Positions 1-44,170 of a stretch of DNA of 49,443 nucleotides are shown in pieces. Source of the DNA: a bacterium (lineage in GTDB: Bacteria; Patescibacteriota; Minisyncoccia; Moranbacterales; UBA2206); the NCBI GenBank assembly GCA_029567195.1, contig JAKQLJ010000017.1:1-49443 (forward strand), read 5' to 3'. Position 1 is the first letter of the stretch, and every line of letters begins with the position of its first letter. The notes under the pieces are model-generated. The model made no database searches, was not told where the DNA came from, and was given only the letters and a program-made list of their open reading frames with translations. Both the position numbers and the translations under genes were made by a program.

Positions 1-150
1 AAAAAATAAAAGAAAAATAAAATTATTTGGCCAGTATGATAAAGAATACTCAAGCAATAAGCATTGTTTGTATTTGACCGAATTTTAATAAAACTTCATA
101 ATGGGGAATAATAAAGAGGAATATGCATTAAAATTAACCGAACAATACCG

Positions 151-8233: not shown

Positions 8234-8243
8234 TATAATCTCG

Positions 8244-8316
8244 TGCGCTTAGCAGGAATTGAACCTGCGACCTTCTGGACCGCAACCAGACGCTCTATCC
8301 ACTGAGCTATAAGCGC
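8244..8316 (-). tRNA. tRNA-Arg (anticodon GCG)
   Basis: Minus-strand cloverleaf: acceptor GCGCTTA/TAAGCGC, anticodon stem TCTGG/CCAGA with loop TTGCGGT, T-arm GCAGGTTCAATTCCTGC, discriminator A, no CCA. A damaged partial copy lies about 150 bases away at 8466-8544. Confidence 0.93.
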
Positions 8317-8465
8317 TTTTTATTTTTGTAAATCAACGGGATTTATCCGCCTCTGGCAAAATCTTCTGGACCCGTCTGCTTCGCGATTCAACTTATTAAT
8401 GGAATAATTTTAAACTTTATTGTTTATTAATGATATATCAATTAAATAGTTAACTCTTGCTGGCA

Positions 8466-8544
8466 GGCCGCAACCAGACGCTCCCTGCCTGCATGCCTAA
8501 CGGCATGTAAACCGGCAGGCAGGTATCCACTGAGCTATAAGCGC
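8466..8544 (-). pseudogene. Partial tRNA-Arg copy interrupted by a palindrome
   Basis: On the minus strand it repeats the 5' part of tRNA-Arg (GCGCTTATAGCTCAGTGGATA, then GAGCGTCTGGTTGCGG) but between these pieces, at the D-arm, carries 40 bases starting and ending CCTGCCTGC / GCAGGCAGG with an inner ATGCC..GGCAT hairpin. The 3' half of the tRNA is absent. Confidence 0.85.
8484..8523. repeat. Palindrome within the tRNA-Arg fragment
   Basis: Outer arms CCTGCCTGC and GCAGGCAGG plus an inner GCATGCC/GGCATG pair. Other CCTGCC/GGCAGG palindromes occur at 21032-21057, 43324-43338 and 44106-44146. Confidence 0.8.
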
Positions 8545-21031: not shown

Positions 21032-21057
21032 GAATTCCTGCCGGCTGACGGGCAGGC
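21032..21057. repeat. CCTGCC/GGCAGG palindrome behind tRNA-Pro
   Basis: CCTGCCGGCTGACGGGCAGG; same type as those inside the tRNA fragments. Confidence 0.6.
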
Positions 21058-40827: not shown

Positions 40828-40942
40828 GTGACAAGGGACAAGTGACAAGGGACAAGGGACAAGGGACAAGTAACAAGGGACAAGTGACAAGGGACAAGCG
40901 GTAGGTTTTATTGCTTGTTACTTGTCACATATAACTTATTAC
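40826..40942. repeat. Solo GACAAGG/GTGACAA repeat between gatC and gatA
   Basis: About ten units of (A)GGGACAAG or AGTGACAAG (40826-40901), then an inverted GCTTGTTACTTGTCAC (40913-40928). It can fold as a long hairpin and has the same building blocks as the repeats around the four-helix gene, but no gene inside. Confidence 0.75.
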
Positions 40943-40950
40943 TAGTGCTT

Positions 40951-43261: not shown

Positions 43262-43347
43262 AGTGGGGTGGAGCAGTTCTGCCTAACGGCAGACAAGCTG
43301 TCTGACTCGCGTGGCTCACTTGCCTGCCGATAGGCAGGTAACCACGA
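43262..43347 (+). pseudogene. Partial tRNA-fMet copy with two palindromic insertions
   Basis: Matches the first about 43 bases of the intact tRNA-fMet (AGTGGGGTGGAGCAGT, TCTGACTCGCGTGGCTCA, AACCACGA). One palindrome (TCTGCC-TAAC-GGCAGA plus GACAAGCTGTC) is in the D-loop, and another (CTTGCCTGCC-GA-TAGGCAGGT) is in the anticodon loop, splitting the CAT anticodon. The 3' half is missing. Confidence 0.85.
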
Positions 43348-43361
43348 ATAAATAAAATATA

Positions 43362-43628
43362 ATGTATAAGATATATGTGTTGTTTTTTAATAAAAACGTT
43401 TATACCAGAATGACATCGGATTTAAGCAGAAGAACCAAAGAGCATCAGAGAGGTAAGGTAAGATCAACAAGAAACAAGGGGAAATTTGTTGCTAAAGTAA
43501 TAGAAGAGTGTGGAGACAGAAAAATAGCCAGGAAAAGAGAGAAATATTGGAAATCAGGTTGCGGGAAAGAAAAATTAAAAAAACTATATAGCGGGGTGGA
43601 GCAGTCTGGTAGCTCGCGTGGCTCATAA
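43362..43628 (+). CDS. GIY-YIG nuclease-like ORF running into tRNA-fMet
   Basis: 88 codons. MYKIYVLFFNKNVYTRMTSDLSRRTKEHQRGK...KIARKREKYWKSGCGKEKLKKL follows the GIY-YIG single-domain family (R..EH, A..RE.....KSG). However, the second motif, normally YIG, reads YTR here, so activity is doubtful. The last 13 residues (YSGVEQSGSSRGS) are coded by the tRNA-fMet gene. It sits exactly between the broken and the intact copies of tRNA-fMet, as if it entered the tRNA gene and restored a working copy at its 3' end. Confidence 0.7.
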   Translation: MYKIYVLFFNKNVYTRMTSDLSRRTKEHQRGKVRSTRNKGKFVAKVIEECGDRKIARKREKYWKSGCGKEKLKKLYSGVEQSGSSRGS

Positions 43629-43663
43629 CCACGAGGTCCTGGGTTCAAATCCCAGCCCCGCAA
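43590..43663 (+). tRNA. Initiator tRNA-Met (anticodon CAT)
   Basis: GCGGGG/CCCCGC acceptor with a mismatched first pair (A1-A72), GGAGCAG...GGTAGCTC D-arm, CGTGG/CCACG anticodon stem with CTCATAA and T-arm CTGGGTTCAAATCCCAG. The 1-72 mismatch and D-arm identify the initiator. Confidence 0.9.
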
Positions 43664-43725
43664 CATTTTTATAAAATATAAAACATACGGTGTGTTTTTG
43701 TTTCTTTTTGCGTTACATAAAAAAT

Positions 43726-43777
43726 GCCGGCGTAGCTCAGTTTCGGCCATAGGCCGACCAGCCTATGGCTGGGGTTA
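43726..43777 (+). pseudogene. Partial copy of tRNA-Met/Ile2 with palindromes in the D-loop
   Basis: GCCGGCGTAGCTCAGTT equals the start of the tRNA at 43792. The D-loop then holds two abutting palindromes (TCGGCC-ATA-GGCCGA and CCAGCC-TAT-GGCTGG), after which GGTTA resumes and the match ends. Confidence 0.82.
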
Positions 43778-43791
43778 TAAATTTGTATAAT

Positions 43792-43865
43792 GCCGGCGTA
43801 GCTCAGTTGGTTAGAGCGATGGACTCATAAGCCATAGGTCAGAGGTTCAAATCCTCTCGCCGGTA
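43792..43865 (+). tRNA. tRNA-Met elongator or tRNA-Ile2 (anticodon CAT)
   Basis: Acceptor GCCGGCG/CGCCGGT, loop CTCATAA, T-arm AGAGGTTCAAATCCTCT. The anticodon stem ATGGA/GCCAT has one A-G mismatch. CAT serves either Met or lysidine-modified Ile2; I cannot decide. Confidence 0.88.
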
Positions 43866-43876
43866 CTAAAATTTTT

Positions 43877-43933: not shown

Positions 43934-44056
43934 TAACGGGACAAGCAGTTGATTGTGTATGGACTGGTAGCTCAGTTGGTTAGAGCGTCCGCCTGTCACG
44001 CGGAAGGTCGCGAGTTCGAGTCTCGTCCAGTCCGCGATTAACTGCTTGTCCCGTTA
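43934..44056 (+). other. Inverted repeat enclosing tRNA-Asp
   Basis: TAACGGGACAAGCAGTT (43934-43950) and its exact complement AACTGCTTGTCCCGTTA (44040-44056), with three further pairs inward, would place tRNA-Asp in the loop of a stem of about 20 pairs. Confidence 0.8.
43961..44034 (+). tRNA. tRNA-Asp (anticodon GTC)
   Basis: Acceptor GGACTGG/CCAGTCC, anticodon stem TCCGC/GCGGA with CTGTCAC, T-arm GCGAGTTCGAGTCTCGT, discriminator G. Confidence 0.95.
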
Positions 44057-44086
44057 GTTGAGCAAAGTGAAACTTTACGGGGTCCA

Positions 44087-44166
44087 TCTTAGCAGGTCGA
44101 GGGTTCCCTGCCCGCCAATGGCTTTGCCGAAGGCGAAGGCAGGCGGGGAGTCCCTTCGCTCCCGCA
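44087..44166 (+). pseudogene. 3' tRNA fragment with a palindrome in the T-loop
   Basis: AGCAGGTCGAGGGTTC and GAGTCCCTTCGCTCCCGCA together form a normal T-arm and acceptor 3' strand. Between them, inside the T-loop, lie about 40 bases with arms CCTGCCCGCC / GGCAGGCGGG and an inner GCC..GGC hairpin. The 5' half is absent and tRNA identity is unknown. Confidence 0.75.
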
Positions 44167-44170
44167 CAAA

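Follow-up and report, generated by a model that had tools for sequence, protein, structure and literature searches.

tRNA gene relics with hairpins in their loops and small GIY-YIG nuclease genes in Patescibacteria and other bacteria

Mobile open reading frames (ORFs) that carry a replacement gene end have been described in fungal mitochondria, namely in atp6 of Allomyces and in atp6, atp9, cox2 and nad3 of Glomus (PMC3630166). As far as the relevant parts of that account go, an endonuclease ORF lies in an essential gene, the displaced native end is left alongside and the carried duplicate restores function; in one case (atp9) the endonuclease is of the GIY-YIG type (PMC3630166). Phage SegB and other free-standing GIY-YIG homing nucleases lie near tRNA genes, and the corresponding section of the source reports segmental amplification of a tRNA gene (PMC13096335). 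Dispersed palindromes of 20–40 nt are known from REP/RAYT systems, REPtrons and TIRtrons, where they are linked to a small transposase gene, and some RAYT-type genes are flanked by inverted repeats instead of palindromes, according to the portions of the work that treat them (PMC3733652). Finally, mitochondrial repetitive and double hairpin elements comprise single and double hairpins whose sequence changes and whose helix is conserved, in the part of the description that bears on them (PMC2800124).

The loci that we describe here share traits with each of these systems: an endonuclease ORF in an essential gene with the displaced end alongside and a duplicate that restores it, a GIY-YIG gene near tRNA genes, dispersed palindromes of 20–40 nt, and single and double hairpins of changing sequence. 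At these loci, broken copies of tRNA genes carry hairpins in their loops and are frequently accompanied by a small GIY-YIG ORF and an intact tRNA.

Broken tRNA genes in the window and its genome

The window, the whole stretch of 49,443 nucleotides that we analyzed, is contig C16 of an 829-kb genome (87% complete, 54 contigs). On the reverse strand it carries an intact tRNA-Arg(gcg), the working copy (8243–8316; ARAGORN; Rfam RF00005, 73.9 bits), and a tRNA-Arg relic that is interrupted twice. Nucleotides 1–21 of the relic (8524–8544, 21/21 identical to the intact neighbor) are followed by a 40-nt palindrome, CCTGCCTGC..GCAGGCAGG, with an inner ATGCC/GGCAT hairpin (8484–8523), by nt 22–37 (8468–8483, 16/16 identical), by a 97-nt insertion after nt 37 at the anticodon-loop position (8371–8467) and by the remainder, nt 38–45 and a decayed stretch read by eye (8340–8370). 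The preliminary description of this partial copy with a 40-base palindrome in its D-arm is confirmed, with nt 1–37 identical to the neighbor. The palindrome sits precisely between nt 21 and 22, at the junction of the D-loop and the 3' D-stem (..GGATA|GAGC), with 0 bases lost, and comparison of the relic with the intact copy revealed no target duplication around it. By eye, 38 of its 40 nt are shared, in the opposite orientation, with the T-loop hairpin of a tRNA-Lys relic on another contig (G000:C4:4201-4240), and its core occurs exactly at two places in the genome, the D-loop in the window and the T-loop of that tRNA-Lys relic. No GIY-YIG ORF accompanies the tRNA-Arg relic (8468–8544), and its fold is little better than that of shuffled sequences (z = -1.50).

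An orthologous locus in another genus (L107/L062) retains relic nt 1–37 without change (37/37), against ~68% identity of the flanking DNA and 52% and 66% identity of the flanking proteins. It lacks the 97-nt insertion, and the stretch that matches the decayed part of the window relic (8340–8370) holds a small CCGCC/GGCGG hairpin (by eye). The palindrome measures 20 nt in L062 and 40 nt in the window. The identity of the relics across genera may have been kept either by function or by gene conversion.

The other relics lie on the forward strand between 43262 and 44167. The 5' half of a tRNA-Met (43262–43347; fold z = -4.55) holds hairpins in the D-loop (43278–43305) and the anticodon loop (43319–43339). 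It is followed by an 88-aa GIY-YIG nuclease ORF (43362–43628; PF01541, E = 3.3e-7, 31.0 bits against a curated cut-off of 22.6; our profile A1, E = 1.0e-20), the end of which lies within an intact tRNA-Met directly 3' of the nuclease domain (43590–43664; ARAGORN). A second relic, recognized by folding and by comparison with its intact copy, consists of nt 1–17 of a tRNA-Met/Ile2 and a D-loop double hairpin (43726–43772, the hairpins at 43743–43772), and the intact tRNA-Met/Ile2-type copy follows (43792–43866; ARAGORN). An intact tRNA-Asp (43961–44035; ARAGORN) stands on an inverted-repeat stem as a tRNA-only cassette, its left arm (43934–43950) pairing perfectly over 17 bp with the right arm (44040–44056), and the whole unit folds with z = -7.61; the right arm (..CTTGTCCCGTTA) resembles, by repeat comparison, the arms of a nested tRNA-Thr in L145. 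The 5' half of a host tRNA for this cassette was sought by eye and not found. Last comes the relic of a tRNA 3' half (44084–44167) with a 42-nt hairpin in its T-loop (44107–44148), as judged from sequence and fold; on sequence, it is not a copy of the neighboring tRNA-Asp.

For two of the four window relics, the fold is better than that of any of 200 shuffles. The fragments at 43262, 43726 and about 44087 (44084 in our analysis) had been described as truncated tRNAs with palindromes in the D-loop three times, the anticodon loop once and the T-loop once, and our reading of the sequence agrees. The main omission of that account is the GIY-YIG ORF between the broken and the intact tRNA-Met; the nested tRNA, the tRNA-Asp stem and the spread across phyla were also missed. 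Elsewhere in the window, a CCTGCC..GGCAGG palindrome (21037–21056) lies 28 bases past a tRNA-Pro(ggg) gene, where no tRNA relic was seen, and an imperfect inverted repeat of ACAAGGG units (40845–40946) adjoins an amidase gene.

The genome as a whole contains 19 matches per strand to CCTGCC..GGCAGG palindromes, compared with one for the backwards pattern. A genome-wide search, proposed earlier as a check, yielded further truncated tRNAs with palindromes beside intact ones. Specifically, a tRNA-Arg(tct) copy on C4 has a palindrome at the same D-loop site and is otherwise identical to its intact neighbor over nt 1–63, and on C33 a GIY-YIG ORF and then an intact tRNA-Gln come after a tRNA-Gln 5' half that has hairpins in its D-loop. 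GIY-YIG sequences thus lie between relic and intact tRNA at C16:43368 (the window) and C33:16625, with remnants on C31 and C32. At G000:C32:3912-3986, a tRNA-like sequence whose anticodon position holds a CTCGCC/GGCGAG hairpin lies beside a GIY-YIG-like end and is interrupted by the contig end; several contigs of this assembly end at tRNA repeats. The same genome has a GIY-YIG copy just downstream of its tmRNA gene (L050 1501-2202; G000:C1:25590-26291), with two in-frame TAG stops and with hairpins between the tmRNA 3' end and the ORF, and GIY-YIG genes just downstream of tmRNA are also present in L210, L215, L267, L268 and L279.

Recurrence across bacteria and anatomy of the element

We scanned other genomes for palindromes placed in tRNA D-loops. 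Among the 128 genomes of the order, an open pattern in which 4 to 14 free bases separate AGCTCAG from the palindrome matched 11 distinct places, eight of which are tRNA copies, and the palindrome directly follows GG(N)TA in all eight. When 0 to 20 free bases were allowed in the 379 genomes of the phylum, 11 of 12 places were tRNA copies, all but one with the palindrome at the GG(N)TA site or at most three bases further on. The D-loop patterns read backwards, as a control, gave four matches in the 128 genomes and none in the 379; these low control counts, like the single backwards match in the window's genome, argue against chance. A T-loop counterpart is rare, with a single true case (in the window's genome) in the 379 genomes; the second match is a palindrome that comes after an intact tRNA. 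Across 84,980 species, a scan gave at least 113 contig loci and at least 117 pattern matches, all counts being lower bounds. Among the 117 matches listed, the palindrome is at the D-loop site ..TA| or ..TAGA| in at least 99, a matching intact tRNA lies less than 1.5 kb downstream in at least 80, and a GIY-YIG ORF lies within 450 nt in at least 46, the other 71 being listed without one. Under a strict rule, a host 3' half was found beyond the intact tRNA in at least 12 of the 80 listed matches with an intact tRNA downstream. Some of the listed relics are clearly decayed. The 18 matches off the two main sites were all kept in the denominator, including nine that are, by eye, chance matches outside tRNAs (the TTCTGAGC group L087, L124, L151, L157 and L186, and also L108, L119, L128 and L133); L101, which ends in TA and by eye is not a tRNA, was likewise kept.

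The listed records include Patescibacteria, Omnitrophota, WOR-3, Bacteroidota, and one gammaproteobacterial and one deltaproteobacterial MAG. Isolates are among them (Agriterribacter humi, Terrimonas sp., Thermoflavifilum thermophilum and Sinomicrobium sp.), as are complete or long single-contig records (CP055307.1, NZ_CP019384.1 and MFJV01000001.1, the last of 1,020,299 bases). We reject an assembly artefact, the objection that the preliminary description had raised against itself, since both the site and the arrangement are found again in many independent genomes, complete records and isolates included.

In addition, we approached the question from the nuclease. Profile A1, built from twelve of the tRNA-linked nucleases, has invariant residues Y7, Y18, G20, R28, H32 and E64, among them the Tyr, Tyr, Arg and Glu typical of the GIY-YIG superfamily (PF01541), and this conservation fits a working GIY-YIG site. 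The nearest solved relatives by profile are UPF0213 (1ywl, 1zg2) and SLX1, with I-TevI matching weakly; the likeness to UPF0213 and to SLX1, which is structure-specific, is one of sequence profile alone. The profile matched 85 of 116 genomes. In a set chosen by the nuclease and blind to palindromes (90 loci: 30 returned by the search and 60 more in list order), 42 ORFs lie directly before an intact tRNA, 20 only after a tRNA or tmRNA, and 28 in neither position. A hairpin insertion in a displaced tRNA copy was present at 35 of the 42 loci with an intact tRNA directly downstream (30 from alignments, three of them placed by eye, and five by eye); the remaining seven comprise four with an intact but different tRNA upstream, one that is masked and two that were not assigned. 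Among the first 30 hairpins, 22 occupy the D- or anticodon loop or lie exactly at its edge, and the acceptor strand has no counted hairpin, against a rough null of 19/39 and 8/39 (p = 0.005 and 0.001, respectively), and the other eight are inside stems, a few nt from a loop. The aligner put side pieces in the acceptor strand at two loci, both of which also have D-loop hairpins, and in one of the further five cases (L257) the hairpin is at the acceptor/D-arm junction. The hairpins differ in sequence (CCTGCC.., CCCGCC.., and double hairpins such as TCGTCC..GGACGA TCGGCC..GGCCGA), and therefore it is the place that is conserved and not the sequence. Where the GIY-YIG gene follows a tmRNA or tRNA, we found no convincing 3'-half relics except for a few, such as L225. 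The sequences directly show the arrangement and its recurrence, the common site, the diversity of the hairpins and the coupling of the nuclease to a hairpin-broken copy.

The GIY-YIG ORF starts ~20–60 nt past the hairpin and often runs into the rebuilt tRNA. Across 36 loci, the dead copy matches the rebuilt one from tRNA nt 1 onward, as far as nt 29 (median) in the anticodon arm, and in 27 of 36 GIY-YIG cases nt 1 to 19..25 of the dead copy are fully identical to the intact one. Upstream of nt 1 the match extends over a median of only 3 nt, and therefore the duplicated piece starts at the tRNA itself; a simple long target-site duplication is unsupported, as identity stops at tRNA nt 1. The GIY-YIG ORF lies between displaced and functional part-copies of the host tRNA gene, as in mobile ORFs. 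The unit also occurs in tandem copies, in Thermoflavifilum (L109) and in Magasanikbacteria (L088). In the latter (280–1060), the tandem unit is a tRNA-Asn-like 5' half with a D-loop palindrome and a short AT-rich spacer; one unit holds a GIY-YIG gene, and the final tRNA copy has an interruption of its own, in the anticodon arm. In L193, a complete, unsplit tRNA-Arg(cct) with all stems carries only the D-loop palindrome, and in L161 this host tRNA, palindrome included, is split by an intact tRNA-Arg(cct). From sequence comparison, this suggests that the hairpin was inserted before the tRNA was split. A tRNA intron was rejected, since anticodon-arm bases are missing at the insert junctions in L055 and L057 (by eye), and no group I intron family match was found in the window.

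In a second form, an intact tRNA lies inside a dead host tRNA (L055, L057, L058, L070, L077, L116, L145 and others), and the two are of the same isotype where this could be identified. Some of these nested tRNAs stand on an inverted repeat (CCCCGCAC.. in L057, L058/L104 and L117; CCCGTTAGA in L145), and ends of these two kinds also flank GIY-YIG ORFs outside tRNAs. A perfect inverted repeat of at least 10 bp was found at 16 of 28 intergenic GIY-YIG loci (null 12/140), at one of 42 tRNA-linked GIY-YIG loci (null 6/210) and around only 6 of 46 nested tRNAs (null 20/920); at 8 bp, the count for nested tRNAs (11/46) is little above the null (61/460). Inverted repeats as a general rule for nested tRNAs were thus rejected, being clear at 10 bp for a minority only, and with 6 of 46 the link between nested tRNAs and intergenic GIY-YIG units is no more than suggestive. 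Several intergenic GIY-YIG ORFs have CCCGTTAGA / TCTAACGGG inverted repeats (L199, L202, L204, L209, L211, L213, L217, L242, L250 and L266); the right repeat of these units is close to the end of the ORF, and they resemble very small transposon-like units. As a theme close before tRNA D-arms, CCCGTTAGA was rejected, with one match in 59 genomes.

Explanations for the relics and their hairpins

We consider it fairly probable that tRNA genes are invaded by small homing-like GIY-YIG elements and by tRNA-only cassettes, which bring the tRNA back in intact form, and that REP-like hairpins accumulate in loops of the half that is displaced. The relics would then be displaced halves of tRNA genes, left by small elements that supply an intact tRNA on invasion. 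In one form, a dead 5' half is followed by a GIY-YIG ORF of ~80–90 aa that ends at or inside the next tRNA, and then by that intact tRNA of the same isotype; in the other, an intact tRNA, sometimes on an inverted-repeat stem, lies inside a dead host tRNA, the window tRNA-Asp being a candidate. Hairpins would be added to the loops of the dead copy, mostly at the D-loop edge, then in the anticodon loop, and in the T-loop in 3' halves. By analogy with the mobile ORFs of fungal mitochondria, the GIY-YIG protein may cut tRNA genes and drive a homing-type insertion. That the element moves, and why its hairpins are placed in loops, is what we infer: the tRNA gene may be opened as a folded strand, the loop edges of which are cut by a structure-sensitive nuclease (the GIY-YIG protein or a Y1 transposase), and the hairpin may finally silence a copy made dispensable by the newly supplied tRNA. 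Alternatively, Y1 transposases, matched in 12 of 15 hairpin-bearing genomes, could be the movers of the palindromes. Counting against our preferred reading, 28 of the 90 GIY-YIG loci are not beside a tRNA and 71 of the 117 listed matches lack a GIY-YIG ORF, as does the tRNA-Arg relic of the window. The low share of nested tRNAs with a perfect inverted repeat (6 of 46), the eight of 30 hairpins inside stems, the hardly raised flank complementarity of the palindromes and the 37/37 relic identity across genera, which suits a retained function no less than gene conversion, also weigh against it.

In a bolder version, which we put forward tentatively as a possibility, these loci represent a distinct bacterial mobile element in which a bare GIY-YIG nuclease takes the role that the Y1 transposase has for REPs. 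Such a nuclease would act on folded single strands of tRNA (perhaps also tmRNA) genes, insert hairpins at loop edges and place its own gene or a replacement tRNA in the anticodon arm, whereby cells would swap tRNA genes. The intergenic GIY-YIG units with inverted repeats (CCCGTTAGA and CCCGCAC ends) could represent the element in its free state, as some tRNA cassettes are flanked by these ends too.

The palindromes might instead be REP elements of the ordinary kind, mobilized by a Y1 (RAYT-type) transposase associated with REPs, which land anywhere and within tRNA genes survive only in copies that are already redundant, with loops favored since the transposase acts on single-stranded DNA and with the GIY-YIG genes as separate passengers. 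We regard this as unlikely, although it accounts for several observations. REPs and RAYTs act on single-stranded hairpins, as far as the relevant part of the source goes (PMC3733652). The same 20-mer palindrome is present in 57 copies in 54 genomes, mostly outside tRNAs, a copy number like that of REPs, and 18 of these perfect copies, mostly intergenic by eye and some within other dispersed repeats, occur in one genome of the same family as that of the window (G087). Y1_Tnp matches are found in 12 of the 15 hairpin-bearing genomes, including three weak ones in the window's genome; the GIY-YIG profile is found in 15 of 15 (genomes chosen for having a palindrome or relics). However, there is no Y1 match in G094, G357 and G461, all of which have hairpin relics, and no GTAG (or CGTC) tag or other constant tetranucleotide was seen by eye at the flanks of the 57 copies. 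Moreover, the hairpin-broken copy is tightly linked to GIY-YIG (at least 46 of the 117 listed matches within 450 nt, and 35 of 42 nuclease-chosen loci), and hairpins of unrelated sequence occupy the same place. The earlier proposal of a mobile palindrome that enters single-stranded loops survives in a narrower form. A strong preference for tRNA loops is supported, as by eye roughly a dozen of the 57 copies occupy the D- or T-loop of a tRNA copy (BLAST flagged 16, not all of them convincing, and tRNA matches were also seen in 10 of 113 control windows nearby) and the 40-nt variant occupies both a D- and a T-loop. Outside tRNAs the flanks are only slightly complementary, and therefore entry into any single-stranded loop is too general a rule: complementarity over the 57 copies was 5.82, hardly above that of shuffled pairs (5.41, sd 0.18; reached by 8 of 500 shuffles).

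More doubtful still, in our judgment, is that the relics are functional RNAs, tRNA-like 5' halves or loop-extended tRNA-like molecules, transcribed together with the tRNA and maintained by selection, for instance as leaders or decoys, the extensions being in loops because stems must survive. The 37 of 37 relic bases kept in another genus amid diverged DNA and proteins speak for it, as do the complete hairpin-bearing tRNA-Arg of L193 and the two window relics that fold better than every shuffle. Yet relics are cut at varying places, the palindrome changes in sequence and size (20 nt in L062, 40 nt in the window), the window tRNA-Arg relic has a further 97-nt break and folds little better than shuffles, and relics of the GIY-YIG form lack the second tRNA half, which leaves no tRNA to be folded from the relic alone. 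The idea of selection for a foldable RNA, raised in the preliminary description, is thus weakened by the GIY-YIG form, and the cross-genus identity leaves it some probability. Neutral decay, in which tandem tRNA duplications would be followed by random insertion of abundant intergenic palindromes into pseudogenes, seems very improbable to us: tandem arrays exist (L088), palindromes are common in intergenic DNA and some relics have plainly decayed, but neither the shared site in at least 99 of the 117 listed matches across phyla, nor the full identity of dead and intact copies in 27 of 36 GIY-YIG cases, nor the absence of counted acceptor-strand hairpins among the first 30, nor the coupling to a nuclease would be expected from it.

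Comparison with known systems

Together, our observations point to a little-noticed kind of mobile element that lives inside tRNA genes. If this is true, a class of tRNA relics in Patescibacteria, Bacteroidota, Omnitrophota and others would be accounted for, the many small GIY-YIG genes of these bacteria would have a role, and there would be a route by which single-copy essential tRNA genes can be invaded and exchanged without cell death. Since target loop, hairpin and candidate nuclease lie side by side in cultured bacteria, the movement of palindromic repeats would be directly testable. In the literature that we searched, hairpin-broken tRNA halves linked to bacterial GIY-YIG genes were not described. 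Double-hairpin elements have reportedly been the subject of work on Allomyces.

The comparison with described systems brings out what is particular to these loci. In the relevant part of the description, the mitochondrial hairpin elements are mainly intergenic, with one in rnl, and that part mentions neither tRNA loops nor a nuclease (PMC2800124). REPs are described, in the portion that defines them, with a GTAG tag and a Y1 transposase gene (PMC3733652), whereas the present palindromes show no tag by eye and the gene linked to them encodes a GIY-YIG nuclease. The section on SegB systems describes no split tRNA with loop hairpins (PMC13096335); unlike SegB, the ORF here lies inside the tRNA gene, between a dead half and an intact copy, and in cellular genomes. 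Compared with the fungal mobile ORFs as presented in the passages that cover them (PMC3630166), the host here is a bacterial tRNA gene, the duplicated and the displaced piece usually match exactly, the nuclease amounts to a bare domain of ~80–90 aa, and hairpins occupy the loops of the displaced half.
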